Shown here piece after piece: positions 23,723 through 40,306 of a stretch of DNA of 64,000 nucleotides. Made by a program: the position numbers and the translations under genes. The notes beneath the pieces were generated by a model. The model was not told the origin of the DNA. It made no database searches and was given only the letters and a program-made list of their open reading frames with translations. The DNA lies in assembly GCA_021848145.1 (NCBI GenBank), contig JAJZMX010000002.1, positions 62,001 through 126,000 on the forward strand, written 5' to 3'. Every line of letters starts with the position of its first letter. The stretch's first letter is position 1. This stretch comes from a bacterium (GTDB taxonomy: Bacteria; Patescibacteriota; Saccharimonadia; Saccharimonadales; UBA4665).

Positions 23723-24769
23723 ATGATTGCCGAAGTCCGGCTACAACAGTACCGTTCATACCTAGATAAAAAGTTCCAGTTTTCTCCTGGGGTTAATATT
23801 ATTGTTGGACCTAACGCCAGCGGTAAAACAAACTTATTAGAGGCTGTTGAAGTTATATGTAAAGGCGGCTCTTACCGAGCCTCAGACATTGACCTTATTA
23901 TGCACTCTAAAAACTGGTCAAGAATTGATGCCACAGGAAGTTTTGGTAACAGGACACTAAAACTACACGACAATACACAATTAAAAAAAGAATTTATCTT
24001 AGATGACAAAACATATAAAAGACTTAGGATTAACCAACAAATACCTATAGTGCTCTTTGAGCCCAATAACTTGCTTATGTTGTCTGGGTCACCTGAACTC
24101 AGGAGGAATTATTTAGACGGTATACTCGAGCTAACTAAAATAGGATATAAGCAGACAAAAAATAACTACATAAAAACCCTTAAACAACGAAACGCTCTTT
24201 TAAAAAGAGGGAAGACGACCACAAGTGAGCTGTTTCCCTGGAACGTTCGTTTAAGCCATTTAGGAGGCTATATAGCCGCTTCAAGAGTCGAATTAGTAAC
24301 CGATTTAAATAAAAACATTAGCGGTGTCTATACAGCCCTCTCAAGCAGTAAAGATAATATATCACTGAGCTACAAGACGAGCCTGGATGTTGAATCTTAC
24401 GAGAGCTCATTACTAAAAAAACTAGAAACAAGCTTGCAACTAGATTTAATTAAAGGATTTACAACTTACGGACCACACCGTGACGACCTTGAAATTTTAA
24501 TAAACAATCACTCACCATCTGTGGTTGCTTCAAGGGGCGAAAACCGAACCATAACAATATCTCTAAAAACTCTAGAAACAGACATACTCAATAAAGAATT
24601 AGGCAAAAAACCAATTGTTTTAATGGATGATGTGTTTAGTGAGTTAGACAAAGAAAGAAGCAAGCAACTATCTTTGTTTATGACAGGTTACCAGTCGATC
24701 ATAACTACAACCGACATGCATTCAGTTCCTAGACTAAAAAACATTAAGTCAATAAAAATCAGCAACTAG
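23723..24769 (+). CDS. recF: DNA replication and repair protein RecF
   Basis: A 348-residue SMC-like ATPase. Walker A is GPNASGKTNLLEAVE at ~29-43. The C-terminal part has YGPHRDDLEI, the signature SRGENRTITISLKTLE (in place of SxGQ) and Walker B LMDDVFSELDKER. It loads RecA-type recombinases at gaps with RecO/RecR. It is somewhat shorter than the ~370 residues usual elsewhere but complete. It ends overlapping the convergent PEGA-protein gene by 4 bp. Confidence 0.95.
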   Translation: MIAEVRLQQYRSYLDKKFQFSPGVNIIVGPNASGKTNLLEAVEVICKGGSYRASDIDLIMHSKNWSRIDATGSFGNRTLKLHDNTQLKKEFILDDKTYKRLRINQQIPIVLFEPNNLLMLSGSPELRRNYLDGILELTKIGYKQTKNNYIKTLKQRNALLKRGKTTTSELFPWNVRLSHLGGYIAASRVELVTDLNKNISGVYTALSSSKDNISLSYKTSLDVESYESSLLKKLETSLQLDLIKGFTTYGPHRDDLEILINNHSPSVVASRGENRTITISLKTLETDILNKELGKKPIVLMDDVFSELDKERSKQLSLFMTGYQSIITTTDMHSVPRLKNIKSIKISN

Positions 24770-26184
24770 TATTTGTTAGCCAACACGCTACTATTTTCCA
24801 CGCTTAAATTGTTAATACCGTATTGTGAAAGATAATTTGGCGTATTACTGCAAGTGGATGGTAGGGGGTTAATAAAAGACTGTATGAGTAGTTGAGTTGA
24901 GGTGAAATTAATGTATCCCAACCTACAAAAACCCAACACCACAGGAAGGTGTTGTCCTAGCTGCATTGCAGTTTGAGAGACGGTCTGGTTTTTTAAACCG
25001 ATTCGGTAAATTGATGATGAAGCTAGTGTTCTTGGTTGACCAGTTAAATAGATATATGAACCCCGTGAACTCAAAGTTATATTTTGGAGGTTATAGTCTG
25101 ATGTGGCTATAATGGTCGACCTTTGTTTTTTATAGTTATAAGACCACACTTTGTTTCCAGACGCATATACAAGTGTGTTTTCGTTAATCCAAGTTGGATC
25201 AACGAAATTAGTGTTAGGAATAAGAGCTAGTTGTTGCATGGACTTATTAAACACGCCACCATAAGATTCTCCAAAAACCGCCACTAAATTGCCGTTTGTT
25301 GACCAAGTAAACCCAGTTGCTGGTGTGGCTCCTTTGTATATAAGAGAGCCATCCTTAGACATAACTATAGCGTTGTTGTTAGAACCTGAAGGCCAACTTA
25401 CGCTAACATATTGAGTACCGGCACTTATTGAAGCCGGGTAATGCCCTTCTTTGTAGATCAGTTTAAATCCATTGGTAGTTGTGTATGAATAAACACCAGA
25501 TTTGTTAACGAAATATGCTGTTTGATCAGGCGACACTGTGTAGTTAAAGTTGCTGTCACTAATATAGCCAGGCAGACTTAAGGGCTGTATGTTGCCGTTA
25601 CTAACAGTATAGAGGCTTCCATTAAAAGTCTTGGCAATACCATAATTAGTGTTTGACCAAACAACTGTTTGAAAGGAATAGTTTGAGTTAACAGAGCTTA
25701 GTTGATTATTGGTTATTGTTTCCAGGTTGTTGTTGCTGGCGTCAATGAAGTTTAGGGTGTTGGAGCTCACAGACAATTGGTTTGCCGCAACTGATGCTAC
25801 CGGCTCAATAGGCATCTGTTTGTTATTTAATGAAATATTAGTGGTAGTAGTAGAAAAACTTTTAACTTTTACTACTTGTTTTGTGACGTAAAGTCCATAA
25901 GATACCGTTACTATATAAGTACCTGGTTTAACTTTCTGTGGTTCGTTAGCTTTTATTTTAATGGGCTTAGAGGATGTACTAGATAACTCGTTTGTAATCA
26001 AGGCCGTAACACTATTGTTGGCAGCTGTTTTAACAAAAATACTTCCCTCAGATACGTAGCTAAACAAATAATATACACCTATGAGCATTAACAAAACAAT
26101 CACACCCAATAAAACAAACCTGAACAGTCTAACAGAGTTGTCTTGCCCTTGTGGCGTGCCTGAATAATATATTTCATTGTTCAT
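24766..26184 (-). CDS. Membrane-anchored PEGA-domain protein with beta-propeller-like region
   Basis: A 472-residue protein with a short cytoplasmic start, one hydrophobic segment at ~24-47, and an external region. Residues ~50-120 resemble a PEGA domain (SIFVKTAANNS, then VKPGTYIVTVSYGLYVTKQVVKV), a surface-layer type carbohydrate or protein binding fold. The remaining ~330 residues show repeating short beta motifs (SPDQTAYFVNKSGVYSYTT, TWINENTLVYASGNKVWSYN) like a WD40/TolB-type propeller. It overlaps the upstream lysozyme-like gene by 4 bp and is the last gene of the secretion operon. It may be a surface component of that machine; this is inferred from position. Confidence 0.7.
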   Translation of the reverse strand: MNNEIYYSGTPQGQDNSVRLFRFVLLGVIVLLMLIGVYYLFSYVSEGSIFVKTAANNSVTALITNELSSTSSKPIKIKANEPQKVKPGTYIVTVSYGLYVTKQVVKVKSFSTTTTNISLNNKQMPIEPVASVAANQLSVSSNTLNFIDASNNNLETITNNQLSSVNSNYSFQTVVWSNTNYGIAKTFNGSLYTVSNGNIQPLSLPGYISDSNFNYTVSPDQTAYFVNKSGVYSYTTTNGFKLIYKEGHYPASISAGTQYVSVSWPSGSNNNAIVMSKDGSLIYKGATPATGFTWSTNGNLVAVFGESYGGVFNKSMQQLALIPNTNFVDPTWINENTLVYASGNKVWSYNYKKQRSTIIATSDYNLQNITLSSRGSYIYLTGQPRTLASSSIYRIGLKNQTVSQTAMQLGQHLPVVLGFCRLGYINFTSTQLLIQSFINPLPSTCSNTPNYLSQYGINNLSVENSSVLANKY

Positions 26185-27515
26185 AACGCCGTATTACCCC
26201 ATGTTGGCCAACCAGCTGGCAAAGAACCGGTTGTTGTTCCTTGCATTGTACCAGGAGGAGCTCCTAAACTTTGTAACAATTGAGAATAGTTTTCACCAAG
26301 TGCTGTCGGGTCTTTCCCATCAAATTGTGGTTTTGCTAAAGCCGTGCCATTACCCGGTGGCGTTGCCCATCCTGTTTCTATCCCTGTTGTGCTTGGAGCT
26401 GCCATAGTACAAAGCGGAGTTGAGCTGGTTACAGATTCACCTATAGTTAAGGATGGGTCAGGAATACACCCCTCTGCGACGTAAACGTAGTCCCCTGCGG
26501 CGGGACCACTAGTTAGTTTTTCTGATATGAAGGCGTCATATCCACCAAAATTCCAGCCACCGTTGGTTAAGTTCTCAATAGTGCCACTACCAAGTGCATA
26601 TATGGTTCCCAAGCCCGTATAATCTACGCCTTGATCTATGCGTCCTGGAGTTAAGTTTGTTATGGAGCGAAGAGGATTTTGGTAGCCGCTTGCGGATGTT
26701 GTAGTTGCGGAACAAGGAGATGAAGCGATTGGGCCATTAGGGTTGTTGGGTGATACGCTTGAACCGTACTTAAGCTCACTATATGGCACATGCATGTTGT
26801 CATACTGTTCATATTTACTGGTACCCATTTCTGTTGAAGCCTCTTGGTCATAATTGCTTCGTGCTTGAGCCACGTTTGCTTCTAAGCCGTTAAAGTATTG
26901 CTGTTGGTTTGCGGTATCTGCTCCTGCCCATGCCTTATTTCCTTGGTAATTTTGGTAATACGTTATTGCCTGCATAACCTGATCGGCGGTAGTGTTGGGG
27001 TTAATAAGCGCTTGGGCTATACGGTTTTGGTATGAATTTACCATTGTTTGGACTGTAGCCTGAATACCACTATTGAAGCTTTCGTAGGCCATGTTACCAG
27101 TTAACTGTACACTAGACCCAGGTTCCCCTTGAGATGAGTTAAGAGGGTTAAATAGATCTGAGTTTGCTATATCTCCTCCCTCGCTCCAGAACCAAGCAAC
27201 TAAAGCAATGACATGCTCTTGCGTGACTACAGCTGTTTGGCTCGTGTTTGTGGTTTTAGCTAAGTCCTCTAGCACATTAATCGCAAACTCTTCTAGATAG
27301 TATGGTGGCTGAGTGTTGCTATTCCATGCAGCTTTACCGGTTGTATTTAATGTAACACCGAAACCAACAATACCACATAGGTTTTGTTTGCCGTTATAGT
27401 AAATACTGTCATTCAGTATTGAGTTCCAGTCGTATGTAGTTATGGCGAATGCGCTACTTATAGTTAATACAAGGGACATTGAAACGGTTATTATAAAAAC
27501 TAGAAACTTTTTCAT
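26181..27515 (-). CDS. Exported lysozyme-like and degenerate M23 peptidase-like protein
   Basis: A 444-residue exported protein. A signal peptide spans ~1-25. Residues ~95-225 look like a lysozyme-type or bacteriophage-type domain, with WFWSEGGD (Glu112 a candidate acid) and NPLNSSQG, then a helical stretch. Residues ~280-420 resemble a LytM/M23 domain (PGRIDQGVDYTGLGTIYALGSG), but the zinc-binding His of the usual HxGxD element is Asp294, so peptidase activity is doubtful. Such proteins open or remodel peptidoglycan, the role VirB1 plays in type IV secretion. It overlaps both neighbours by 4 bp, within the secretion operon. Confidence 0.7.
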   Translation of the reverse strand: MKKFLVFIITVSMSLVLTISSAFAITTYDWNSILNDSIYYNGKQNLCGIVGFGVTLNTTGKAAWNSNTQPPYYLEEFAINVLEDLAKTTNTSQTAVVTQEHVIALVAWFWSEGGDIANSDLFNPLNSSQGEPGSSVQLTGNMAYESFNSGIQATVQTMVNSYQNRIAQALINPNTTADQVMQAITYYQNYQGNKAWAGADTANQQQYFNGLEANVAQARSNYDQEASTEMGTSKYEQYDNMHVPYSELKYGSSVSPNNPNGPIASSPCSATTTSASGYQNPLRSITNLTPGRIDQGVDYTGLGTIYALGSGTIENLTNGGWNFGGYDAFISEKLTSGPAAGDYVYVAEGCIPDPSLTIGESVTSSTPLCTMAAPSTTGIETGWATPPGNGTALAKPQFDGKDPTALGENYSQLLQSLGAPPGTMQGTTTGSLPAGWPTWGNTAL

Positions 27516-30025
27516 TTACTATTCATTAAACTTGTGTAAAAACCCGTTACTTCGTCATCGAGTATATACTGCCTAAACCTTGTAGCTAAACCTTGTAATT
27601 GTGGGTATGATGGCAATGAAGCTAAACACCCACCAAAATAACGTCCAGGGGCAAGCCGTAAACAAAAGGAATACGCAATATTTTCTTTAGTGATTGGTTG
27701 TGGGGCTACCTGGCTGTCAAAAATACCCATAGTCCCACAAATAGGATCAGCTGTTGTATTGGATGCTGTGTTGTAATACCCCTGAGTGAAACAGTGGAGA
27801 ACATCTTGGCTGTTGTTGTCATCGCTCGCATTCGGGTATTTGTTGGGATTACCAAGTAGGTTAATTAACGTGTCGGTGCTTCCACCGTATGAAATGGTTG
27901 TATTAAAGAGATACTGCTCGTTACTTATGGGATCATATTTTGTAATGTCACCAGGATTAAAACCATACTGGGTAAAGCCATAAGCTTGACCTGGATTTGT
28001 AGGCGTGGTCGATGCATAGGCTTTTGCACCAGCAAGCAAAATTCCTAAATCATGAAACAACATAGAAGGCGCATTAAATATGACACCAAAGAAAGAGTTT
28101 ATCATGCCTATTCTAGAAAGCGGTAAATCAACCATTAGTTTTGATACCAGAGAATTCGGGTTAGAAAAAGCAAAGGTACGGTTCAAAAATGACCGATTCG
28201 AATTTGTAACTTGTTGCATTTGTGATCCTTTAGTGTATAAAGCTGTGGCTTGGCCTTGTGTTAATGGTGAGCCTCCTAGCCTTTGTGCGTACATGTTAAA
28301 AGCTAGATTGGCTCCAGCATCGCTGTTGTTCATCCACTGAACTGCATTTTCTAGGCCATCTAAACCTACTGGAGTAAGGTATTTAACTAGTAAAGGAATG
28401 GCTTGTTTTATGATTACAGTATTAGCTACCACTAGGACTGCGGATTCGGCCAACTGTGAAAGTCCTGCGCTTACGCCATCAGCTATAAACTGCCCAGCTG
28501 TGCCAACAACTCCTACTATGCCGCCCAGTATGCTATTGTTCATAACGCCACAAGCCTGAGTTAGATGGGACTGATTAAATATAGAATGGATCTTGTTTAT
28601 TATTGTTGTTGCTGCTGTAGCTACAGGCAGTGCCGTGGAGGATATTCCAGGGTTTTTATTTGTTACGTGCCCTCCCGAAATCCGCTTCCATGCTGCCGAC
28701 ATGCTGAAAGGAAGGCGAGATTGACTGCCTTTTGGCGCGCTAGAATTACCATTAAACATACTCGTGACCTTGGATATCTCACCCCCACTTAGTTTTCCGC
28801 CCACCTTCATCTCGTCGGCTATGCTAATTAATGTGGTAGCATGTCTAACAAGAAAACTCATAATGGTTGGGATTCTCGATTTACTTAAACCAGATGCAAC
28901 CCCTTCAACATCACACATGTCTGACAATCCAGTTGTAATTAACGCATCTTTACCGATGCCTCCGCTTTCTGCTGCTGTTTGAGCATCTGCTATGACTTGG
29001 GATTCTGGTTGGCCTTCGCTAATTCCTTTGTTTGCTGCTTCTAGGATACTGTTACTTTCCCCACTTATGCTCTGATCCAATTGGGCTTGTGCTTGCTCTT
29101 GAGGAGTTGCGTTTGCTGAAGTCTGGTTGTTATCTTCTGCTTGGGCGTCGGCTAGCTGCGCGCCTGTATCTTCAGTTCCCGAAAGGTCGGCAGTAACATT
29201 ATCCTGAACGTCTTTATTGTTTTCGTCTGGACTTGTAATAGGGTCAAAGGTTGCTCCTGAATGTTCAATCATGAGTGACCTAAAAGTAGCTTCTTGCCCA
29301 ACATCCCATTCTGGTATGGCACTTTGTATTCTTGCGGCTAGTTCAGGGTTGCTGAAATCTTCCGGTGTTATCATTCTTCCGGTTTGGAGATCTTTTAAAC
29401 CAGTGAAATTACCACTAGCATCCTTTTCTACTTGAATGCCTTCATTGGAAAGTCCAGCCTCAACTCTAGGGTCCGTAAAACTAAACTGGTCAATTTCTGA
29501 TGTCATTGGATCTTTTGGGTTTGTGACGTCTTCCTCGGTGTTTACACTTTTACAGCCTGAAGATGATGCTAAAGAATGGCACATCATTCTTTTCATTATC
29601 TGGTTGCCCGCCTTTTTTACAATATAAGAAACGCCCTTATCTTCGTATTTAAGCATGTCCTGTTGAATAGTAACTAGTTCATGCGAAGCTATAAAACCAA
29701 ACAGAGCAACTATGCCAATAATAAAGGTCGTAATTCCTCCACCAACACCCGCGGCGCCCTTCTTGTGTTTACCCGCGAACTTAAGTACCTTTCCCCATGG
29801 GGTGGCACCAGCAATTGCGTTTAGGCCTGCTGACTTGAGTTTTCCGCCAGACTCTGCTTTATAAAGTCCTCCGCGATCTATTGACTTGCCATTATCCGAG
29901 GCATTTGTTTTGTTGTCTGGCCGGTAAAAAGACCTTTCCTTTTTCTTTAACTCGTCAGAGGAATCTCTCTTTTTGTTCCAGTCATCGCCCGGATTGTGGC
30001 TGTAGCGTCCCTCTTTTTCATCCAT
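27512..30025 (-). CDS. Large membrane protein of the secretion locus, unknown
   Basis: An 837-residue protein. The first ~80 residues are strongly hydrophilic and basic. A hydrophobic segment at ~95-118 (GGGITTFIIGIVALFGFIA) and further ones around 510-560 and 640-665 suggest a multi-pass or loop-rich membrane protein. Residues ~270-350 are Gln/Glu/Ala-rich and probably helical. Several cysteines occur in the distal part. I recognise no family. Its place directly after the VirB4 ATPase gene (20 nt gap) and before the lysozyme-like gene (4-bp overlap) makes it a likely structural part of the same export machine. Confidence 0.65.
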   Translation of the reverse strand: MDEKEGRYSHNPGDDWNKKRDSSDELKKKERSFYRPDNKTNASDNGKSIDRGGLYKAESGGKLKSAGLNAIAGATPWGKVLKFAGKHKKGAAGVGGGITTFIIGIVALFGFIASHELVTIQQDMLKYEDKGVSYIVKKAGNQIMKRMMCHSLASSSGCKSVNTEEDVTNPKDPMTSEIDQFSFTDPRVEAGLSNEGIQVEKDASGNFTGLKDLQTGRMITPEDFSNPELAARIQSAIPEWDVGQEATFRSLMIEHSGATFDPITSPDENNKDVQDNVTADLSGTEDTGAQLADAQAEDNNQTSANATPQEQAQAQLDQSISGESNSILEAANKGISEGQPESQVIADAQTAAESGGIGKDALITTGLSDMCDVEGVASGLSKSRIPTIMSFLVRHATTLISIADEMKVGGKLSGGEISKVTSMFNGNSSAPKGSQSRLPFSMSAAWKRISGGHVTNKNPGISSTALPVATAATTIINKIHSIFNQSHLTQACGVMNNSILGGIVGVVGTAGQFIADGVSAGLSQLAESAVLVVANTVIIKQAIPLLVKYLTPVGLDGLENAVQWMNNSDAGANLAFNMYAQRLGGSPLTQGQATALYTKGSQMQQVTNSNRSFLNRTFAFSNPNSLVSKLMVDLPLSRIGMINSFFGVIFNAPSMLFHDLGILLAGAKAYASTTPTNPGQAYGFTQYGFNPGDITKYDPISNEQYLFNTTISYGGSTDTLINLLGNPNKYPNASDDNNSQDVLHCFTQGYYNTASNTTADPICGTMGIFDSQVAPQPITKENIAYSFCLRLAPGRYFGGCLASLPSYPQLQGLATRFRQYILDDEVTGFYTSLMNSK

Positions 30026-30045
30026 AACAGATTATTTTAAAAATC

Positions 30046-31971
30046 TTATACTCCTGGCGATAGGCGGTTTGCTAAATCTAAGACCCCAGAAGCACTTCCT
30101 TGAGTAGCTTGTAAGTCAACGGATCCTTGATCTGTACTTCTTTGTACTGAAGCGGGTGTAGTAGAAATTAGACTTGTTTCTGTAGGGCTAGCTATAACTT
30201 GGATATGAACATGGTTTTGTCCAGCAAAGAACAACCCTTGACCAACTGGGAACTGGCTCAGTCGCTTAGTTTCTTCTGTTGTGAGTTTGAAAACGTCAGC
30301 CAATACGTCTACGGCGGAAGGCGACTGCTTCATTAAAAACTGCATAGATGCATTTGCAACTACGGCCCTACCCATTCTACTACCCATGAAGTCTTCAACG
30401 TCTTGAGAAACAGTTGTTATACCTAGGCCATATTTACGGGCGCGTTTGGCTATACTGAAAAGGAAAGCTGCAGAATCTTCGTATTTCATTAACTGCCAGG
30501 CCTCATCAACAATTAGGATTCTTTTTTTCTTGTCTGTTTTTGTCTTGTTCCAGATGTAGTTTAGAACAATATACATTGCAACTGGCCTTAGTTCATCCTC
30601 TAAGTCCCTAATATTAAAGACCACAAACGGGTTATTAATGTCTATGTTAGATTGTTGGCTGAAAATTCCTGCAAAAGTACCCGAGGTATATTTACGTAGC
30701 CTTTGAGCAAGTTGTGGACCAGTACCTCCCATATGAAGCAATGTGTCATAGAGGTCGTTGATTGTTGGTGGTGTTCCAGTATGGGTAAGAGGATCATTCG
30801 TAATGCCCACTTTGGCATAGGTGTCGATTAGTGCCGAATCTAGATCGGCCTCTTCTGAGGGTGCGAGCGCCGGCATAAGAGCCGCAGAGCCACCAACCAT
30901 TTGGGCTTGTGCCCCACCCATCATTAACCTTAATAATCCGTGAAGCGTAATTAGGTTTGATCGCAATGCATTGTCGGCCTCCTCGTTGTCGACAACTCTA
31001 GGTAGGTCAAAGGGGTTAATCCGCACGGAGCTACTCAAACTAAGCCTGGCATAGGCACCACCCACCGCCTCGCTAAGCTTTTCATATTCGTTTTCAGGAT
31101 CAACGATAATTATCTCTGTTCCAAGCATTAATGAGCGTACAGCCTCTAGCTTTACGGTAAAAGATTTACCCGCTCCGGATTTAGCGAAAATAACCGAATT
31201 GCCGTTTTCTAGGGAAAAACGGTCAAATATCACTAAGCCAGAGTTATGCATATTTAGCCCATATAAAATTCCGTTTTCTTGGCTTAGATCTGCTGAGGTA
31301 AAAGGAAAACTTGTGCTTAAAGCTCCGGTGCTCATGTTTCGACGTATTTGTAGTTGATCAATAAATTGCGGGACAGTTGAGTTAAGACCCTGTTCTTGTT
31401 GAGATGTTGCTGGCTTACTGTAGACTAATTGCTGTCCAAGCATAGATTCAACCTTGTGAGACACAAACTCAAGTTCATCTCTCGAGTCGGCATAAAGCGT
31501 GAAATAGAGCCCAAAACGGAAAAACCTTTCCTCTCCTACCTGGAGTTTGTCGCGCATTTCCTCCGCATCCATTACAGCCGCTTCTTTACCCGGGTCTCTA
31601 ACTCTGCCTTTTTCAGCATCAATCTGTAGCCCGGCTTCAAGCTGGGTTACCTTTTTGCGCAGATTCTCTAATACCACCTGGCTTTCAACGGGATAGACAT
31701 ACATGCTAATATCCATGACTTCATCCAGGTTTACCATGCCACTTAACCAGCCAGTGTATACCTGCCTTGGGTAGCCATACACGTAGTAGGTTCTAGCATA
31801 TCTAGTGCCTATTTGAAAAAAAGAAGAACTAAACTCCACTGAACTGGGGGCAATAAAATCACGAAGTGCAGTGATTCCTTTTTGGAAGGCGGCTTGTACT
31901 TCCATCGCTTCTTGCTCACGTTGTTGTTGAGCTATAACGATTGGATCGTTAGAAGCTTTTTTGTGTGCCAT
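30046..31971 (-). CDS. virB4: VirB4/TraE-family type IV secretion ATPase
   Basis: A 641-residue ATPase from the ATG at 31971 (MAHKKASNDP). The open frame extends 21 codons upstream, but this ATG follows the previous stop by 1 nt. Residues ~30-230 form the VirB4 N-terminal domain. Walker A is FAKSGAGKSFTVK at about residue 255; IIVDPENEYEKL follows and Walker B is RILIVDEAWQLMKYED, then SQDVEDF and a terminal region with QFLMKQSPSAVDVL. VirB4 proteins power assembly and substrate transfer at the cytoplasmic membrane. This is the strongest marker of the type IV secretion locus. Confidence 0.93.
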   Translation of the reverse strand: MAHKKASNDPIVIAQQQREQEAMEVQAAFQKGITALRDFIAPSSVEFSSSFFQIGTRYARTYYVYGYPRQVYTGWLSGMVNLDEVMDISMYVYPVESQVVLENLRKKVTQLEAGLQIDAEKGRVRDPGKEAAVMDAEEMRDKLQVGEERFFRFGLYFTLYADSRDELEFVSHKVESMLGQQLVYSKPATSQQEQGLNSTVPQFIDQLQIRRNMSTGALSTSFPFTSADLSQENGILYGLNMHNSGLVIFDRFSLENGNSVIFAKSGAGKSFTVKLEAVRSLMLGTEIIIVDPENEYEKLSEAVGGAYARLSLSSSVRINPFDLPRVVDNEEADNALRSNLITLHGLLRLMMGGAQAQMVGGSAALMPALAPSEEADLDSALIDTYAKVGITNDPLTHTGTPPTINDLYDTLLHMGGTGPQLAQRLRKYTSGTFAGIFSQQSNIDINNPFVVFNIRDLEDELRPVAMYIVLNYIWNKTKTDKKKRILIVDEAWQLMKYEDSAAFLFSIAKRARKYGLGITTVSQDVEDFMGSRMGRAVVANASMQFLMKQSPSAVDVLADVFKLTTEETKRLSQFPVGQGLFFAGQNHVHIQVIASPTETSLISTTPASVQRSTDQGSVDLQATQGSASGVLDLANRLSPGV

Positions 31972-31972
31972 A

Positions 31973-32836
31973 CTACTGTAGTCCCCCTCTAAGGTGTTCT
32001 TGGGATGCCACACCCTCTCCCTTAGTAACAACATCTACGGTTAGATCCTCGATGTCGCCTAGCTGTTGTCTGGTTGCAGTGTCTGGGTTGTAAGTGTCGT
32101 AATAAAGCTCAATTAATTCACGGGTATCTAGGGGCAGTCCCTGTATGCCGGCCTGTGTTAAACCTCCAAGAACTGCTTGAACTCTATTTCGGAGCTCGTT
32201 TTTAGCTGTTTCAAGAGTAGCTTCGTTAATTACGACGTGTTTTTCGGCCTTGCTAAACATTTCTGCTAGACCAGTAACAAAGGTTTTTCCCTTTGCCGCT
32301 CCCCTAGACTCGTCCCCGATTATATTAAAGTAAGGAACTACTACGTAGAATTTTTTGTCCATAATATTAGTTTGCTGGCTTAATTGATCAATATATCCAA
32401 TGTAGTCGTCCATCATCATGGCTAGGAGCATGTTGTCGTGCTCACTGCGGATCTTGTCTAGTTTTTCTATATAAGGCTGCATGTCGATTCGCTGGGTACG
32501 AATACATATCTGAACTGGAAAATCGAGAGAATTTAAGAAGCCCTGGTAAGCAAACTCTACAGCTTCTTGCTCCTGGGAGCTCATGAGATCAAAGTTAATG
32601 CTCTTAACCATAATTACAGATCGGAAGCTGCCGTCATTCATAATAATTATGCCGTCTCTAATTTCAGCTATCTCAAGTAAGTTCTGGGTGCTGTTTGGGT
32701 TTGTTTTTGAAACAGGTTTTTTTACAGGCCCCACGCCCCGCTTCATATGAGACAGGTTTGGGCGACCGACCGTCGGTTGTTGTCCACCGGTTGTAGGGCC
32801 ATAGTTTTGTATCTGGTTATATTGTTGGGGGTTCAT
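31973..32836 (-). CDS. TraC/VirB4 N-terminal-like protein of the secretion locus
   Basis: A 287-residue soluble protein. Residues ~55-250 resemble the N-terminal domain found in TraC/VirB4 proteins (DGIIIMNDGSFRSVIMVKSINFDLMSSQEQ, then FYVVVPYF), without any Walker motif. The first ~45 residues are a Gln/Asn/Pro-rich tail. The gene sits between the PrgI-like gene and the complete VirB4 gene and its stop is 1 nt from the VirB4 start. I infer that it is an accessory partner of the ATPase, or the result of an ancient split or duplication. Confidence 0.75.
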   Translation of the reverse strand: MNPQQYNQIQNYGPTTGGQQPTVGRPNLSHMKRGVGPVKKPVSKTNPNSTQNLLEIAEIRDGIIIMNDGSFRSVIMVKSINFDLMSSQEQEAVEFAYQGFLNSLDFPVQICIRTQRIDMQPYIEKLDKIRSEHDNMLLAMMMDDYIGYIDQLSQQTNIMDKKFYVVVPYFNIIGDESRGAAKGKTFVTGLAEMFSKAEKHVVINEATLETAKNELRNRVQAVLGGLTQAGIQGLPLDTRELIELYYDTYNPDTATRQQLGDIEDLTVDVVTKGEGVASQEHLRGGLQ

Positions 32837-32853
32837 AAAACTTCCGCTTATTT

Positions 32854-33801
32854 CTAGTGTAGCTTGATAACGACTTCTTTTGAAGCTTCATGTGCAAGTG
32901 TTTGTACACTTAGCCCTTTACTGTTAAGTGCAAGGTTCAAAATTTCAGGGTCAATCTTCTTGGGCGAATCTTTGGTCTCTGGACTCACTTCGGCACTCGT
33001 CTGCTTTAACTTTGGCTTGGGCGGCTTTGCTGTAACGGTGTGAAGGTTCGATAGCGACATTTTAAGCTCATCTGAGCGGTTTTTTAGCTCCTTAGCTATA
33101 GCTTCTTCAGAAGAGGTGTTCACATTCTCTTGGTTGACGTACTGTTGCTGACTGGCGTTTAGGTCGCTCATAAGGGAAATGAGCTCTTGTCTGTGTTCTT
33201 GACTCTTGTGTTTAAGTTCTTCTCCCAGGTGTGTGTATTTTGGGCTAGTGTCATCAAATAAGTCATCATTAGGGGTGGTTTCGTAGTCGGCAACCGGCTT
33301 AGGAATTGACCCAACACTAATTAGTCTGTCTGAATCATTTGAATTAGGAGTATAGACTTGAGGTGCTGCTTGCATATTCTTTACAGCCCAACCCCTAGTG
33401 TCGATTGTCAGGGCAAGCGCTTGCAGTCGGCTCTGGACTTCGTCTGGGGACAGTTCTTTTGTTAGTCTGCGCTCTACCTTTATAGGGGCGGTAATTGTGA
33501 CAAGTTCATTTACTCCGCTTTGATTCCAGATACGTTTTCGGGGTTTAAACATAAAGCGTATTTTGGCTAATGCCCAAACTTCGGTAGGTTGATCCCTTTT
33601 AAACGGAAATGCAAAAAAACTAGCCGCGAGAGCGGGTGGTAAGAAGAGTACCAATAAAAATACAACATGCTTACTTATAACCAAAAAACAGATGTAGTAA
33701 AGGAAAACTGCGACTAAACCATAAATAAATTGACGTAAAGTTAAGGGGCCAAGAATATGATCCTCGGCCTCTATATCCTGCATCAATTTGTATGTTGCCA
33801 T
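32854..33801 (-). CDS. PrgI-family (VirB3-like) membrane protein with long cytoplasmic tail
   Basis: A 315-residue protein whose first ~100 residues match the PrgI family (DIEAEDHILGPLTLRQFIYGLVAVFLYYICFLVI, two hydrophobic segments, PTEVWALAKIRFMFKPRKRIW). PrgI is the Gram-positive counterpart of VirB3 and normally pairs with VirB4, whose gene follows. The remaining ~200 residues are hydrophilic, charged and probably disordered, longer than in typical members. The gene appears to have its own -10 element 8 nt before the ATG. Confidence 0.85.
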   Translation of the reverse strand: MATYKLMQDIEAEDHILGPLTLRQFIYGLVAVFLYYICFLVISKHVVFLLVLFLPPALAASFFAFPFKRDQPTEVWALAKIRFMFKPRKRIWNQSGVNELVTITAPIKVERRLTKELSPDEVQSRLQALALTIDTRGWAVKNMQAAPQVYTPNSNDSDRLISVGSIPKPVADYETTPNDDLFDDTSPKYTHLGEELKHKSQEHRQELISLMSDLNASQQQYVNQENVNTSSEEAIAKELKNRSDELKMSLSNLHTVTAKPPKPKLKQTSAEVSPETKDSPKKIDPEILNLALNSKGLSVQTLAHEASKEVVIKLH

Positions 33802-33809
33802 TTACTTCT

Positions 33810-33815
33810 AGTATA
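33810..33815 (-). promoter_or_regulatory. -10 element of the prgI-virB4 operon
   Basis: TATACT with an upstream TGG (extended -10 type) on the minus strand, 8 nt before the ATG at 33801. There is no ribosome site. Confidence 0.5.
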
Positions 33816-33845
33816 CCAAAGTAAATGGCCCAAAGATCAGTAGAG

Positions 33846-34424
33846 CTAGATGTCTTTAGGTAAGAATTTATACAAAGTGTCGACAAGTTTTGGCAACACC
33901 ACAGGAAGGTCTTCTTCTGGCATTTCCGGAAGTCTGCCATAGCCCATTCCATAGCTTGACGCAAAGGATTGCGGATCTCGGTCACATCTTAGCTCGCCGA
34001 CCATTCTTCCGGCACCCTTCCTAAAAGGACTTAACATTAAGTTGCATCTGCCAATACCAAGCGCAACGCTACCGATTGAATAACCTATGCCCTTCCATAC
34101 TGTTCTATGGTCGAAGCGCCTAAAGGGTGCATTTGAAAAGTTTTTCGGTTTGCTCCAGGCATGCCTCAATGCAACACCACCAAATCTTCTATGCTGCATG
34201 CTAATAATTGAGGCGTTAGGAAAGTCCTTTCTCTCTGCCAGTCTAAGGAAGTCCCTGCAGCTTTCTACGTCTTCCTCACAGAGAAACTCTTCTAGGGGTG
34301 ATCCTGAAAAATCTCCCGATATTCGCTCTAGCTCCTTCTGAAACTCTGTTGTAGCTTTTCTCTCGGGAAAATCTTGTGCAAAAGATATAATACGCTTCTC
34401 GAAAGCCTCTGAAAACTCACTCAT
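33846..34424 (-). CDS. Uncharacterised 192-aa soluble protein in the secretion locus
   Basis: I place the start at the ATG at 34424 (MSEFSEAFEKRI) because a -10 element ends 6 nt before it; the frame is open 8 codons further. The protein is soluble, mixed charged, with SGSPLEEFLCEEDVESCRDFLRLAER in the first half and a basic middle (HRRFGGVALRHAW). It has no signal peptide, membrane segment or motif I know. It lies between the TrbL-like and PrgI-like genes but has its own promoter, so a link to secretion is only positional. Confidence 0.6.
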   Translation of the reverse strand: MSEFSEAFEKRIISFAQDFPERKATTEFQKELERISGDFSGSPLEEFLCEEDVESCRDFLRLAERKDFPNASIISMQHRRFGGVALRHAWSKPKNFSNAPFRRFDHRTVWKGIGYSIGSVALGIGRCNLMLSPFRKGAGRMVGELRCDRDPQSFASSYGMGYGRLPEMPEEDLPVVLPKLVDTLYKFLPKDI

Positions 34425-34430
34425 GCACCT

Positions 34431-34436
34431 TTTATA
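34431..34436 (-). promoter_or_regulatory. -10 element of the 192-aa gene, leaderless arrangement
   Basis: TATAAA with upstream TGG on the minus strand, 6 nt before the ATG at 34424. Confidence 0.5.
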
Positions 34437-34594
34437 CCACATTAACATAAAAAAGTAAATACTAATTTTAGGTCTTTATCTTTTCAGCTGAAAGTCTATC
34501 TAGCTTATAGCTTCACTGGCTAGGTCTTGATTCTGTAGCCAAAAAACTGTGTGTCCAAGTTGGCCTAGGGAAGTTAACTTTTGTCGGCGCATTA

Positions 34595-37500
34595 TTAGGG
34601 TCCGCCTCCAGCACCGCCGCCTCCAGCAGCACCTCCAGCACCGCCGCCTCCAGCACCACCGCCTCCAGCACCACCAGCACGGTTAAGTCGCTCTAGTTCT
34701 GCCGAAGAGTTCCTTACTCTTCTTCCGATCCTAGCTGCCCTTTCTTCACCTACGTAATTGGCGTTTGGAATAGGGGATCCTGTGGTGGGCATTCTTGTTC
34801 GAGCGTTAAAAGCCGGGGCTGATGCAACCGAGGGACTCAAAAGGTTGGCAACAAAGTTTTCAGTGGTTACTGTTCCGGCAGCATTTGTTTGTTCAAGTGC
34901 TTGGGCAGTTCGTTCCCTGACCTCTCCTTTGGCAACACCTTTTAGCTGGGATAGTTCCTGGAAAAATGCTATTGCTCTATCTTGTTCGTCTGTTTGGGCA
35001 TCAGTTAGGGGTCCGGTGGCTTCCATATGCAACATAGGGGTAAAGTGAGCTATGGCAGCATCTATATCTGCGGGTTTATCGTTAGCATGTTCGTAAATAC
35101 TACCACTTTGCCAGGCTGATTCTACGTTGCGTCCTCTTATTGTGTTAAGTTGGTCGTCGACATTAACAGTGTGGCCTTGCGCATCTTGGATTGTTGCTTG
35201 ACCCCTGCCCCTTGCGTCATATAGATCTGCGGCTTCGTTAATATTCCCAAAACCAGCAGCAAGGTCGTGGCGACCTGTTTGCTTAACGATACTATTTAGG
35301 TCGCCAGATAAGCTTGATCTAATACTGGCATTACCAGCTGCGGTTTGTGCAATAGTCCGTTCCATTTGATCAAGGCTGGCATACCCAGTCCCGGTTACGC
35401 CTCTTTGTCTGGCAGCCCAAACTGCCTGTGACTGCCCAAAGCCTACGGCTGTTCTGGCTGCAGAAATAGCTCTACGAGCCTCAGCTTGGGCAGCGTCATC
35501 GGTCATTTGATTGCCTCTAAGCCTAGCACTTTCTTGTATCTCTCTCCAAGTCCTATTAAAGTCACCCCTGTTTGTTAGAGCGACCAGTGCATTATCATCA
35601 TGCTCTACTGTTCTTGCATTTGGTAGTTGGCCGGTTTCGCCCGCCGCTAAGGTAGCCCTTTGAGTGGCTCTCGTGGCTCTACCTTGGTAAGCCCTACCAA
35701 TGACAGGGACGCCCCTCCCTCCTCTGGCATTAAGCAGTGCTCTTCCGGCTCTAGTGTTGTTTAGCCAACCATACTGTCTTGCTACATCCCCTGCATGGCG
35801 TAGTTGATAGGCTTGTCTTGCGGTCTTGCGCCTATTGGCATGAAGCTTGGACGCAGCAGATCTACCATTTTCAACAAAACTATGTATACGACCAAGTGTA
35901 TCTCCTGCAAACTTAAAACTAAAAGGCACCAAAACTAGGGGTATTATCGTGAAGGCTAAAGACATAAGTGCATTTGCTCCACTTTGAAGAGGATTAATGT
36001 TCGCACTCGGTAGGGTGATTAGCACCGACATGACGCTACTTACGGCAAAAATTAGTACAATTATTGGGTATATCATCAGCATTTCCATCAAGACATCCCA
36101 CCAGCGTTTAAAGTATTTTTGGGTGTTCGGCAGGCAATAGAATGCAAACGCAATGGGGGAAAGTATTAGAAGTGCCACAAGAATTGTTTTTCTGATGATT
36201 ATAGTTATAAGGATCGCTAAGAATATTAAAATAGCAGGAACAAGTACCAAGTTGACAAGAAGGGCTCCTCCTTGAGCCGAGAAAATACTCGAGAGGCTTG
36301 TAAGGCCGAAAATTAGTCCACCTGCGCCAGCAGCCGCCAGTACTCCTCCCCCAATATTAACCCCGCCTGACGGGCTTATCTTAAAAGCTGCTGCAGAGCT
36401 TAAGGGGCTAGTGATAACTGCGCCAATACTACCGCCAATAATGTTTGTTACGTCTATTAGTGCAGCAAATATATATATGGATAAGTTTAATAGTATTCCT
36501 GCCACCAAAATGCGTGGCAACATTTTTCTAACTGTATAGGCATCAAGCAACCCTCCTCCGGCTGCCTCACTAATTACCACTACTAAGAGGGCTATAACTA
36601 AGATAATGTCCCCATACAAGCGGAAGTTTGCCCATATTTGATAAGTGGGGTCTCCACTTTGGCAACCCGATCCCGTAGAGCTAATACAGATTGGGTTTGT
36701 GCGAAGTTCTGGCATTATAAAGTCAGTGAGCACAACGCTAGTAATCTTGTTGAGAGCGTTAAAGGTCGCACAAAAAACCCAGTCAAGTACACCCCCCGAT
36801 GCCTCGCATGTTGGTGTTGAAGATGCAGAACTAGAGGTAGAACTTCCTCCGCTTTTTTGTGAAACCGCTGCACTTGAGCTTGATTTTAATAAACTACTTT
36901 GACCATTGGTACTACAAACCATGCCATACTGATTGTTTTGAACGACAGATAAATTATGGATGGCTATATTTATTTGTTGAGGTGGCCCTATTTCTCCAGA
37001 ACTTCCATAAGAAGCTAATACCGCTGAACCACACTGGGATCCTACGGTAATAGTGTCTTGTGAGCTTAAACCCGGACAATTTAGTTGATTGCAAATAAAT
37101 TCATTGGGGTTACCGGATTTGTTTTGACCGAATACTGTTGAGCATGTTTTGTCGTTTGGATTATTTGATTGACAAACAAGCAGACTACCACCACTAACTT
37201 CATAATTGTAAAATTTTTGGAGAGTACCAGATAACTTCAGGTTTCCTATTACGTGTTCGGGTATGGTTAAATAACTGCCGTTCGTGTTACCCGCATCTAG
37301 AGGGTTTAGCACGCAATTGCTTCCAGAACTAAAACCACTACCAGAGGTGCAGATTCTGAAATTTTCATATTCATAACTTTTCTTGACTTTGTATGAAGGA
37401 TCTGACATTCCCGCAATAAATGTCTCGTAAGTTAACTGGTGGTTACTGGAGTTTATAAACGGCCCTAAGCTCTGATGACCGCCGGTGGATATGAAATAAC

Positions 37501-37888
37501 CGGACTTATTAGGATCTTGTTTCCATGTGTCTAGATTAATTCCACTTTTTGTGCCATGTATCGTTACCGTAAGACTATTGGGCAATTGACCCATGATATT
37601 GCCCTGTCCATCTGTTAAGTAGTAGTTTTTACCATTTTGTATGATCTTATATCCTGAAAAGTTTGTAATTTTTTGTCCATTATCTAAAGTAACGGACGCC
37701 ATAGTGTTAAACTCAGACATCCAACAGACCGGAATTTGTGATGCTGGGCTGTAATTAGTCGGACAACTAGACGCATAAGCTTTGTGTGTTGGCAAAACCA
37801 ACGACAGAAGACCTAAAAATAACAATATTGAAGCTGACACGAAAACATAAAGACGTCGTTTGTTTTCGCTAGTTTTTGTTCGCCACAT
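34595..37888 (-). CDS. TrbL/VirB6-like polytopic membrane protein
   Basis: A 1097-residue protein. A signal or first membrane segment lies at ~14-38. Residues ~40-370 form an external domain with many Cys, Ser and Gly. Residues ~370-670 contain about seven hydrophobic segments, including a glycine-rich loop (GGVNIGGGVLAAAGAGGLIFGL), like the channel-forming TrbL/VirB6 family. Residues ~680-1060 are a long hydrophilic, Arg/Ala-rich cytoplasmic region. The C-terminal ~25 residues are almost only Gly and Ala with Pro at the end. Combined with the downstream PrgI and VirB4 genes it is a good candidate for the inner-membrane channel of the system. Confidence 0.75.
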   Translation of the reverse strand: MWRTKTSENKRRLYVFVSASILLFLGLLSLVLPTHKAYASSCPTNYSPASQIPVCWMSEFNTMASVTLDNGQKITNFSGYKIIQNGKNYYLTDGQGNIMGQLPNSLTVTIHGTKSGINLDTWKQDPNKSGYFISTGGHQSLGPFINSSNHQLTYETFIAGMSDPSYKVKKSYEYENFRICTSGSGFSSGSNCVLNPLDAGNTNGSYLTIPEHVIGNLKLSGTLQKFYNYEVSGGSLLVCQSNNPNDKTCSTVFGQNKSGNPNEFICNQLNCPGLSSQDTITVGSQCGSAVLASYGSSGEIGPPQQINIAIHNLSVVQNNQYGMVCSTNGQSSLLKSSSSAAVSQKSGGSSTSSSASSTPTCEASGGVLDWVFCATFNALNKITSVVLTDFIMPELRTNPICISSTGSGCQSGDPTYQIWANFRLYGDIILVIALLVVVISEAAGGGLLDAYTVRKMLPRILVAGILLNLSIYIFAALIDVTNIIGGSIGAVITSPLSSAAAFKISPSGGVNIGGGVLAAAGAGGLIFGLTSLSSIFSAQGGALLVNLVLVPAILIFLAILITIIIRKTILVALLILSPIAFAFYCLPNTQKYFKRWWDVLMEMLMIYPIIVLIFAVSSVMSVLITLPSANINPLQSGANALMSLAFTIIPLVLVPFSFKFAGDTLGRIHSFVENGRSAASKLHANRRKTARQAYQLRHAGDVARQYGWLNNTRAGRALLNARGGRGVPVIGRAYQGRATRATQRATLAAGETGQLPNARTVEHDDNALVALTNRGDFNRTWREIQESARLRGNQMTDDAAQAEARRAISAARTAVGFGQSQAVWAARQRGVTGTGYASLDQMERTIAQTAAGNASIRSSLSGDLNSIVKQTGRHDLAAGFGNINEAADLYDARGRGQATIQDAQGHTVNVDDQLNTIRGRNVESAWQSGSIYEHANDKPADIDAAIAHFTPMLHMEATGPLTDAQTDEQDRAIAFFQELSQLKGVAKGEVRERTAQALEQTNAAGTVTTENFVANLLSPSVASAPAFNARTRMPTTGSPIPNANYVGEERAARIGRRVRNSSAELERLNRAGGAGGGGAGGGGAGGAAGGGGAGGGP
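34596..34680 (-). repeat. GC-rich low-complexity repeat encoding a Gly/Ala tail
   Basis: Short tandem variations of a CCAGCACC/CCGCCTCC unit give a run of Gly-Gly-Ala-Gly at the C-terminus of the TrbL-like protein. The base composition is far above the AT-rich surroundings. It is coding, not a CRISPR. Confidence 0.75.
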
Positions 37889-38079
37889 TACTGGTTTTGT
37901 TATACCATAATATACCTGTAAATTATAAGTGTTTTCTTAGATGATGTTCTTTAGCTATGGTTAAATGCCCTAAACTCATTGAGATGCCAATGGACTAAGA
38001 CAATTAACAAAGAATTATTAGTAAATGTAGCTAGTTGGCTATAGTAGGCGATTGTTTTATAGTTGATACAAGAAAGTGA

Positions 38080-38085
38080 TAAAAT
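38080..38085 (+). promoter_or_regulatory. -10 element of the pilin operon
   Basis: TAAAAT with upstream TGA (extended -10 type), 8 nt before the ATG at 38094. It lies in the 205-nt gap between the divergent TrbL-like and pilin genes; no other structure is apparent in this gap. Confidence 0.5.
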
Positions 38086-38093
38086 TTGCTGAA

Positions 38094-38564
38094 ATGCGCA
38101 AAATTAAAAATATGACAAGGTTTATTGCACTAGTTGTTGCTATTACAGGAACCCTAATGCTAGCTGTTCCTTATGCCAGTGCTAATGCGGTCGCATTGCC
38201 CGTTTCTACGTTTGCTGATTCTCAGTGCGGCAGCGGAAAAGATGCCATAACTACGAGTATTAATTTTGGCTGTAATGGTGCAGTTTGTCCGACAAGCCCT
38301 TCTGCTCCTTACTGCACTTCTAGCCACAATGCCATGATAGACCTGACGTTTGCGATTATTCGCTTCCTGTCTGATGGGGTTGGTTTGATAATTATAGCCT
38401 CTGTGATAATTGCCGGCATACAATATACATTCTCCAGGGGGGAGCCACAATCAATAGCCAATGCTTCTAAGAGGATACAGAGTTCTGTGACGGCCTTATT
38501 GATATTTATTTTTGCCTATGCACTTTTAAACTACATAATACCCAACGGTTTTCTAGGCCAATGA
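38094..38564 (+). CDS. Type IV secretion pilin-like protein 1 (VirB2-like)
   Basis: A 156-residue protein from the ATG at 38094; a GTG 18 nt upstream is also open but sits across the promoter. It has a signal peptide (~1-33, ending near YASA), a Cys-rich external loop (QCGSGK, FGCNGAVCP, APYC), then two hydrophobic segments separated by a polar loop SRGEPQSIANASKRIQSS. Two hydrophobic helices with a G-E/D-P-Q type loop and a C-terminal helix match the VirB2/T4SS pilin family. It is first in a run of six such genes. Confidence 0.8.
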   Translation: MRKIKNMTRFIALVVAITGTLMLAVPYASANAVALPVSTFADSQCGSGKDAITTSINFGCNGAVCPTSPSAPYCTSSHNAMIDLTFAIIRFLSDGVGLIIIASVIIAGIQYTFSRGEPQSIANASKRIQSSVTALLIFIFAYALLNYIIPNGFLGQ

Positions 38565-38579
38565 TTTGAGTGTCGAATT

Positions 38580-39071
38580 ATGAACAACATACTATATGCA
38601 AAAAACAGGACAAAGCTTCTTAAGGCTTTTGCTTGCCTCCTAATCATGCTAACTCCCTTGTTTACGTTTACGGCTGTTTATGCGGGTTCGAATAATGGCA
38701 GTCAGTGCAGTCCAACCTCTGGTAATTTTTTTAATTTCCCTAGTTGGTATGAATATCTTCCTGGTCAAAAAGAGACAACCCAATTTAGCCCAAATTCACC
38801 TTCAACCACCAAGTGTGTGCCTTTGGTAAATAATATTGGTGACGTTTGGCTAATAGTGGCTGCAGTTATAGACATGCTCCTTTGGGTAGCTGGTATTGGG
38901 GCTGTGTTTATGGTTATTTACGGTGGCGTAAAATATACTACGAGTATGGGTGAGCCGGACGCAACGGCGCAGGCGCGGAACACTATTATTTACGCTTTAG
39001 TCGGTCTGCTCTTAGCAATATCGGCATCATTATTGGTAACCTTTATAGCCAAGAGTGTAGGTGCTACATGA
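38580..39071 (+). CDS. Type IV secretion pilin-like protein 2
   Basis: A 163-residue protein: signal peptide (~1-36), a polar loop with two cysteines (SQCSPTSG, TTKCVPL), then two hydrophobic helices with the family core VIYGGVKYTTSMGEPDATAQARNTIIYALVGLLLAIS. It lies 15 nt after pilin 1 and overlaps pilin 3 by 4 bp. The loop sequence FFNFPSWYEYLPGQ is specific to this copy. Confidence 0.82.
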   Translation: MNNILYAKNRTKLLKAFACLLIMLTPLFTFTAVYAGSNNGSQCSPTSGNFFNFPSWYEYLPGQKETTQFSPNSPSTTKCVPLVNNIGDVWLIVAAVIDMLLWVAGIGAVFMVIYGGVKYTTSMGEPDATAQARNTIIYALVGLLLAISASLLVTFIAKSVGAT

Positions 39072-39397
39072 TCTTTGAGACCCTAAACGCAGTAGCCAGT
39101 GCATGTACCGGTAACCAAATTTATTCTGAGGTTCATGGCTCGTGTTATAGCACGGGCCTGCCCACCGTAAGTGCATCTCATAACGAACTTACAACTATAT
39201 TACAGATCTTTTTTGCAATACTTGGCGCTATCGCAGTGCTGTTCGTGGTTATTGGTGGATTTAGGTATGTAATATCCGGCGGTGACTCCCAGTCTATGCA
39301 GAAAGCCAAGAACACAATTATGTATTCGATCATTGGTCTTGTGGTGGCAATCTTCGCCGAAGCGATAGTAACTTTTGTGTTGAGTTTTATAAAATGA
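39068..39397 (+). CDS. Type IV secretion pilin-like protein 3 (short form)
   Basis: A 109-residue member, the shortest of the six. It has no ordinary signal peptide: the N-terminus MIFETLNAVASACTGN is only weakly hydrophobic. The two helices and core are clear (VVIGGFRYVISGGDSQSMQKAKNTIMYSIIGLVVAI). It overlaps pilins 2 and 4 by 4 bp each, showing strict translational coupling. The missing signal peptide suggests either insertion through its first helix or a distinct role. Confidence 0.8.
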   Translation: MIFETLNAVASACTGNQIYSEVHGSCYSTGLPTVSASHNELTTILQIFFAILGAIAVLFVVIGGFRYVISGGDSQSMQKAKNTIMYSIIGLVVAIFAEAIVTFVLSFIK

Positions 39398-39795
39398 GAA
39401 GAATCTATAAATATATTATTGTAATAATGCTATTTTTAGCGCCACTTCTATCAACAGGGACATCATATGCTTCGTCGACAGACTTCTTGCCTGCCTGTAG
39501 TAGTGGGGGTATAGCTAGTAATACCAAAGTGTGTGGAGGTGTCCAAAAGCAAACCAAAAATAATTCAAACGTGGTTATAACAATTATTAAAGATGCAATA
39601 AATATTCTTTCCTATATAGTAGGTATCGCTTCAATAATCATTATCATTATCAGCGGTTTTACGATGATTGTTGCTGGAGGTGACAGTAATTCTACAGCAA
39701 ACGCAAAGAAAGGCTTGCTGGCTGCTGTTATAGGTATTCTAGTTGTAGCATTGGCCCAGGCATTGGTAGTATTTGTATTAGACTATATAAAATGA
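39394..39795 (+). CDS. Type IV secretion pilin-like protein 4
   Basis: A 133-residue member with a signal peptide (~1-27), a short loop with two cysteines (PACSSGG, KVCGG) and two hydrophobic helices around IIISGFTMIVAGGDSNSTANAKKGLLAAVIGILVVALAQ. The usual R/K-Y-V/T before the turn is replaced by TMIV. It overlaps the next gene by 4 bp. Confidence 0.8.
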   Translation: MRRIYKYIIVIMLFLAPLLSTGTSYASSTDFLPACSSGGIASNTKVCGGVQKQTKNNSNVVITIIKDAINILSYIVGIASIIIIIISGFTMIVAGGDSNSTANAKKGLLAAVIGILVVALAQALVVFVLDYIK

Positions 39796-40286
39796 AGCAT
39801 ATTAAAAGCACAATTATCCTATTAGCTGCCTCCTTTGTTTTGGTTTTGGCTAACTTAACGCTTGTCCCTCAGGTTTTGGCTGCACCTAATGTTAACCCTT
39901 CTGGGTCTTCTAGTAGTAGTCCTTCTAGCTCTGGCGGAGCGTTTTCTTCTGCAAAAGGCAGCGCATGCAACGGAATTAGCGAAATAGATAGCTCGCAGGG
40001 GTGTCAAACTAAGGGTTCAGCAATACATAACCTATTCGTCACCACGGTTAATGTTCTTAGTTTTGTTGTAGGCATCGTTGCCATAATTATGTTAATTATA
40101 AGCGGGATAAGGTTTGTTACGTCAGCAGGTAACTCTAATTCTGTTAGTGCAGCAAAGTCGACCTTAATTTATGCAATAGTAGGCCTTGTAATAGTTGCAC
40201 TTGCTCAGATTATAGTCCGATGGGTTATTGGTACCTCTACTAAGATAACTGGCATAGTTTTATTACATATTATTGATTTTCTATAG
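39792..40286 (+). CDS. Type IV secretion pilin-like protein 5
   Basis: A 164-residue member: signal peptide (~1-31), a Pro/Ser-rich segment (NPSGSSSSSPSSSGG), two cysteines, then the core LIISGIRFVTSAGNSNSVSAAKSTLIYAIVGLVIVALAQIIVRWVIG. The coding sequence for the end of this core is identical over 76 bp to that of pilin 6. A 20-nt gap with a possible -10 element separates it from pilin 6. Confidence 0.82.
   Translation: MKHIKSTIILLAASFVLVLANLTLVPQVLAAPNVNPSGSSSSSPSSSGGAFSSAKGSACNGISEIDSSQGCQTKGSAIHNLFVTTVNVLSFVVGIVAIIMLIISGIRFVTSAGNSNSVSAAKSTLIYAIVGLVIVALAQIIVRWVIGTSTKITGIVLLHIIDFL
40172..40247 (+). repeat. 76-bp exact direct repeat, copy 1 (pilin 5)
   Basis: Identical to 40666-40741. It encodes the last hydrophobic helix of pilin 5. 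The bases next to each end differ between the copies. Confidence 0.9.
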
Positions 40287-40294
40287 GGGCGTGA

Positions 40295-40300: not shown

Positions 40301-40306
40301 AAATTT

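Follow-up and report, generated by a model that had tools for sequence, protein, structure and literature searches.

The 64,000-nucleotide window analysed here, a stretch of contig JAJZMX010000002.1 in a Saccharimonadales genome of 0.95 Mb (five contigs, 98% complete), encodes a type IV secretion system (T4SS) directly next to the recF, dnaN and dnaA genes. We identify this system, with a confidence that is very high and applies to its identity, as a resident T4SS of Saccharibacteria that is derived from Gram-positive conjugation machinery of the MPF_FATA class and is used in epibiont–host interaction. T4SSs of this kind were published in 2023 (PMC10633639) and 2025 (PMC12102498), and the window locus is another member. 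A possibly new property is the mosaic nature of the module made up by its last three genes, in which lysozyme, SLT, M23, C39, NlpC, CHAP, VanY and GDSL domains switch repeatedly between related loci.

The seven minus-strand genes from which the original prediction had deduced a T4SS cluster are all open reading frames (ORFs) within 24766–37888 (−). The locus is real and is well delimited once a pilin array on the opposite strand (38076–40774, +) is included. The six genes of this array had been overlooked, as had a gene of 200 amino acids (aa) at 33846–34448 (−). The three genes that follow VirB4 are referred to as slots 1, 2 and 3. The features are given below with their window coordinates, strand, identity and the basis of the assignment.

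24766–26184 (−), surface protein, slot 3: AlphaFold2 model, Foldseek and VIA-align propeller matches
26181–27515 (−), exported wall-hydrolase-like protein, slot 2: family profile against phi29 gp13 and M23 enzymes; alignment
27512–30025 (−), 837-aa protein, slot 1: homologues in relatives, hydropathy, low-confidence model
30046–31971 (−; ORF opens at 32034), VirB4 ATPase: PF19044, NCBIfam CD1110
31973–32836 (−), TrsD-like protein, a detached VirB4 N-terminal domain: NCBIfam TrsD, 1.9e-7
32854–33801 (−), PrgI/VirB3-like protein: PF12666, 2.2e-12
33846–34448 (−), 200-aa gene: 49% over 87 aa to locus L033, E 1.6e-20
34595–37888 (−), VirB6/TrbL-like polytopic membrane protein: PF04610, 1.3e-5; syntenic in relatives
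38076–38564 (+), VirB2-like pilin 1: PF18895, 3.9e-5, just under the cut-off
38580–39071 (+), VirB2-like pilin 2: PF18895, 6.5e-9
39068–39397 (+), VirB2-like pilin 3: PF18895, 6e-16
39394–39795 (+), VirB2-like pilin 4: PF18895, 4.9e-8
39792–40286 (+), VirB2-like pilin 5: PF18895, 2.4e-10
40307–40774 (+), VirB2-like pilin 6: PF18895, 6.8e-11
40880–41371 (−), Hsp20-type small heat-shock protein, gene next to the pilins: 39 of the 80 loci have a homologue there

In the window, recF (23723–24769), followed by dnaN and dnaA (from 21008), directly adjoins the T4SS locus. We compared the locus with 80 related loci that carry a VirB4 homologue, across which the order Hsp20 / divergent pilins / VirB6-PrgI-TrsD-VirB4 / large protein / hydrolase / slot-3 protein / recF-dnaN-dnaA recurs. 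The predicted position beside dnaA is thus borne out by the 56 loci that extend to recF, which they reach in the same arrangement. The distal genes lie between VirB4 and recF in 53 of these 56 and, in the other three (L041, L095 and L107), the VirB4 stop abuts recF and the distal genes are not at their usual place; L041 carries two large genes between VirB6 and PrgI instead. Local order also changes in five close relatives (L035, L036, L039, L057 and L065), in which VirB6 has been relocated behind VirB4. The slot-1 gene of the window starts 20 base pairs (bp) after VirB4, and the junctions of slots 1 and 2 and of slots 2 and 3 are overlaps of 4 bp each, just as had been noted.

Judged by its gene order, which recurs beside recF-dnaN-dnaA in the 80 loci, this is a resident locus and not a mobile island, and the original prediction of a resident apparatus holds. 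Most of its parts have homologues among the conjugation genes of Gram-positive bacteria, its VirB4 matches the CD1110 family of integrative conjugative elements (ICEs), and VirD4-like genes exist in the genome, all of which would suit an ICE, or the decaying remnant of one, that came to lie beside dnaA by chance. Such an element is, however, at odds with the same recF-dnaN-dnaA position across Saccharibacteria, with genes that are intact and conserved, and with the lack of any relaxase of the families tested; because of the synteny, we regard this explanation as largely refuted and exceedingly improbable.

Neither a relaxase nor a VirD4 coupling ATPase is encoded in the locus, as predicted. 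In the genome as a whole, relaxases of families PF03432, PF03389 and PF08751 are absent, with working controls; searches with PF13814 and PF01076 were uninformative (their controls were silent), and the statement on relaxases covers the three former families. The absence of VirD4 holds for the locus and the window but not for the genome: whereas PF02534 detected none in the genome at its threshold, PF10412 and PF12696 revealed three membrane-anchored VirD4-like ATPases (866, 759 and 1037 aa), all of them hydrophobic near the N terminus, on contig C5 and elsewhere on contig C3. The 866-aa protein is encoded within a second, compact T4SS (C5:376371–384247, corresponding to L113:6372–14248, −) that also comprises a pilin, VirB6, PrgI, TrsD, VirB4 and an exported CHAP-like protein. 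The VirB6 of this cluster carries an N-terminal pilin-like segment, and DNA-modification and HNH-type genes are found nearby. The two further VirD4/HerA-like ATPases map to C3:197022–200135 (1037 aa) and C5:218147–220426 (759 aa). A third T4SS, of the compact kind and without VirD4, adjoins the pyruvate kinase, PGK and TPI genes of contig C1 (C1:26762–31669, corresponding to L122:6762–11669, +). The components of both clusters were named from their similarity to the window proteins and to each other and from gene order, with the PrgI-like and CHAP-like assignments made by eye. The VirB4 proteins of the two clusters share 68% identity, against 36–38% with that of the window. VirD4-like genes occur in 52 of 61 relative genomes, and no compact VirB4 cluster stood beside VirD4 in the VirD4 neighbourhoods of the 12 relatives checked. 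A pattern scan of viral contigs found no relative of the compact VirB4, and on plasmids solely distant relatives were present (<60% identity).

Of the core components, VirB4 (PF19044, 9.8e-26; NCBIfam CD1110 VirB4, 1.7e-106) and the PrgI-like protein score above the curated cut-offs, in agreement with the original calls. The VirB4 start probably lies at 31971 because homologues align from residue 21–25. The closest VirB4 homologues are 75–87% identical over the 80 loci; the named organisms are nearly all Saccharibacteria/Saccharimonadia, and the remaining relatives are labelled merely as bacterium or as Patescibacteria metagenome-assembled genomes. The genome is therefore that of a Saccharibacterium, in the phylum Patescibacteria. 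The gene initially called TraC-N-like is indeed related to the VirB4 N-terminal domain, and its identity is refined here to TrsD, with a score below the cut-off of that model and a syntenic position in relatives. The TrbL-like call is borderline when taken by itself, as its PF04610 match (25.5 bits) is 0.4 bit short of the cut-off of 25.9, and it gains from synteny in relatives; this protein has a signal peptide and a Gly-rich tail. Five of the six divergent VirB2-like pilin genes exceed the PF18895 cut-off. VirB4 distances correlate with those of RecF (r 0.62) and DnaN (r 0.49), both above all shuffles in Mantel tests, and with those of DnaA in a smaller set at r 0.31, which is not above the shuffles. 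This gives moderate support to a mostly vertical descent of VirB4, with some exchange possible.

The distal module begins with the 837-aa protein of slot 1, for which hydropathy indicates one strong N-terminal transmembrane segment (residues ~90–121), a long extracytoplasmic part and a weakly hydrophobic helix (~521–550). It matches no Pfam or NCBIfam model, and its family has no model of its own. The AlphaFold2 model is poor (pLDDT 54.2) and gave no Foldseek match below E 2, and is thus uninformative about the fold. A weak match of its family profile to a cytolytic protein was not significant (E 0.13) and was dropped. Homologues are present in 11 of the 15 same-class genomes listed and in none outside the class among 192 genomes, a distribution that suggests a Saccharimonadia-specific family. 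Among 43 slot-1 homologues, we found VanY (13), M23 (4), amidase (2), phosphoesterase (1) and GDSL (1) domains, so that D,D-carboxypeptidase, M23 or amidase modules are carried by about 19 of the 43, whereas a Pfam scan of the window copy found none of these domains. The phosphoesterase domain, seen on one homologue, is an unusual extra enzyme fused to a T4SS module protein.

The slot-2 protein of the window has a signal peptide, a lysozyme-like domain with a conserved EGG and an M23-like domain. Its family profile, built from 35 homologues, matches the lysozyme/M23 enzyme gp13 of phage phi29 at 9e-20, which substantiates the predicted lysozyme/M23-like exported protein. The M23-like domain of the window protein and of its near relatives lacks the canonical His zinc ligands (HxxxD, HxH) and displays RIDQGVD and IETGW instead; it may contain a variant metal site. 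Per-locus scans show that hydrolase domains are present in most slot-2 homologues, the relatives combining a glycosidase (phage-tail lysozyme, SLT or glucosaminidase) with a peptidase or amidase (M23, C39, NlpC, CHAP, VanY or Amidase_3), often with a GDSL esterase in front. In alignment, the lysozyme-like part of the window protein is common to L076 and L098. Loci with about 86% identical VirB4 proteins nevertheless differ in slot 2, which is lysozyme-like plus variant M23 in the window, GDSL plus phage lysozyme plus variant M23 in L035, and CHAP in L036. The slot-2 protein of L038 (15009–18413) is an unusual fused enzyme with an added GH3 domain.

The AlphaFold2 model of the slot-3 protein (mean pLDDT 84.6) consists of a transmembrane helix (residues 15–44), a PEGA-like sandwich (47–116), a propeller of 28 strands arranged in seven four-stranded blades (126–396) and a small alpha/beta domain at the C-terminal end. 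Its resemblance to known propellers (VIA-align Z ~20, with propeller matches in Foldseek) upholds the PEGA-propeller architecture that had been proposed. We also considered VirB8, a type with a single transmembrane segment and an NTF2-like fold, as the identity of the propeller-form slot-3 protein, which the model, showing PEGA and a propeller, does not support. All 42 slot-3 proteins checked have an N-terminal hydrophobic segment; 16 are long and the rest short. The N-terminal part is common to long and short forms (hhalign 89.7%), which are also weakly similar in a C-terminal domain (small searches, best E ~1e-6 to 1e-8); the propeller therefore looks like a module inserted in a surface protein. 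The propeller family has no Pfam or NCBIfam model of its own. The novelty attributed to the locus is narrowed: its kind had been described, and it is the 837-aa and propeller families that lack models.

When mapped onto the VirB4 tree, the peptidase type changes at least 15 times over 29 loci (shuffled mean 18.4), a count that is approximate, its labels being Pfam matches up to E 0.01, some of them below curated cut-offs, with the variant M23 class assigned by eye from the alignment and loci without a peptidase match excluded. The enzyme domains thus change while VirB4 remains 75–87% identical, and mosaic enzymes of this sort would fit tools aimed at changing host envelopes. We tentatively propose, as a reading that is on the unlikely side, that the distal genes form a target-envelope penetration module: Saccharibacteria would swap its enzyme heads with one another to match the wall chemistry of their hosts and keep the engine unchanged. 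Host range would then be set in part by a swappable wall-opening tip, following the logic of a phage tail tip, with the propeller as an optional insertion between the PEGA base and the shared C-terminal domain. Host-wall targeting by the distal enzymes, still unproven, is the reading of greatest interest.

Several points weigh against our interpretation of the system as a whole. The M23-like domain of the window lacks canonical zinc ligands and the lysozyme part is recognised solely via the family profile; VirB6 and pilin 1 fall just below their family cut-offs; the tracking of DnaN and RecF by VirB4 is moderate, which leaves room for local exchange between members of the group; and secretion, a pilus and a transported substrate are predictions from sequence. 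By analogy with VirB1, the slot-2 hydrolase may act solely on the wall of the cell itself. That the distal hydrolases serve only the own wall during assembly, the ordinary VirB1/PrgK role, has a probability slightly short of even: Gram-positive T4SSs ordinarily have two-domain glycosidase–peptidase enzymes (PMC12102498), but the repeated switching beside a near-constant VirB4 and the occurrence of extra esterase, phosphoesterase or GH3 domains are, by expectation, not what own-wall chemistry would call for.

Among known systems, the locus most resembles those of other Patescibacteria. The T4SS of Candidatus Southlakia epibionticum ML1, compared here by its published description, shares low gene numbers that suggest a near-origin place, a pilin series, a Gram-positive-type composition, a cluster without relaxase or coupling protein, and peptidase and lysozyme genes located downstream of virB4 (according to PMC12102498). 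A phylum survey by Quinonero-Coronel (2025) reports MPF_FATA-related VirB4, TrsD, PrgI, VirB6 and arrays of VirB2 pilins, few relaxases and a frequent location close to dnaA (PMC12102498), features with which the window locus agrees. The survey also places lysozyme and peptidase genes downstream of virB4 and counts about one VirB4 per genome, versus three in the genome of the window. In the accessible portion of the survey, neither the 837-aa family nor the propeller protein nor any switching of domains is described. A 2025 review counts the Patescibacteria T4SS among the recent additions to the T4SS superfamily (PMC12857230). PrgI, TrsD, VirB4, VirB6 and a bifunctional wall hydrolase are shared with MPF_FATA conjugation systems (pCF10 Prg, pGO1 Trs and C. 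difficile CD1110-type ICEs), from which the window locus differs in its pilin array, in the lack of a detected relaxase and in its conserved chromosomal position. The two-domain lysozyme and M23-type layout of the phi29 gp13 tail enzyme recurs in slot 2 with a significant profile match, in another context and with a variant M23-like domain.

In the mechanism that we envisage, VirB4 would supply the energy to assemble the VirB2-like pilins into a pilus or channel, the distal module would open peptidoglycan at the contact site, probably that of the host as well as that of the cell itself, and the propeller protein would bind or organise the outer face or surface contact. The channel would then serve to transfer proteins, or less probably nucleic acid, between epibiont and host; any coupling ATPase required could be one of the VirD4-like proteins encoded elsewhere in the genome. 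In S. epibionticum, genes SEML1_0006–0019, among which neither a coupling protein nor a relaxase is recognisable, are essential for epibiotic growth, as is their pilin series, and systems that lack both components are considered more likely protein exporters (Wang 2023, PMC10633639). In Nanosynbacter lyticus TM7x, expression of two T4SS components is higher at the first encounter than during recovery (PMC10768705). We give an even chance to protein translocation as the main job of the T4SS. Import of DNA or other macromolecules from the host, as in the archaeal Ced system, was proposed by Quinonero-Coronel (2025) for Patescibacteria, which are without nucleotide synthesis (PMC12102498), and the window VirB4 is weakly similar to CedB (6e-16); yet it is far closer to CD1110 conjugation ATPases, and, with the export reading of Wang (2023) also opposed to it, we consider import unlikely. 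Six pilins, a surface propeller and a coupling protein that is not in the locus would be compatible with a mainly attachment organelle, a VirB2-type pilus with a propeller adhesin and no translocation, whereas the channel parts VirB4, TrsD and VirB6 are retained as constantly as the pilins across loci and type IV pili already serve attachment (PMC12206443), which makes this quite unlikely.

Two neighbouring genes complete the description. The 200-aa gene between VirB6 and PrgI has no Pfam match and has a homologue beside PrgI in L033, the nearest relative. The Hsp20-type gene is a frequent neighbour of the Saccharibacteria pilin array, although many loci end short of its position, and is a candidate associate of the T4SS; in Agrobacterium, the small heat-shock protein HspL is a VirB8 chaperone (PMC3504140).

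That ultrasmall bacteria dependent on a host possess an essential T4SS that is not conjugative was already known, which answers the question that the original prediction had raised about this locus. What makes the window of interest now is its mosaic distal module, together with the presence of three T4SS clusters in one genome. Should the type of enzyme prove to follow the wall chemistry of the host, the T4SS would breach the envelope of that host, and distal genes could be used to predict in part which hosts uncultured Saccharibacteria have.

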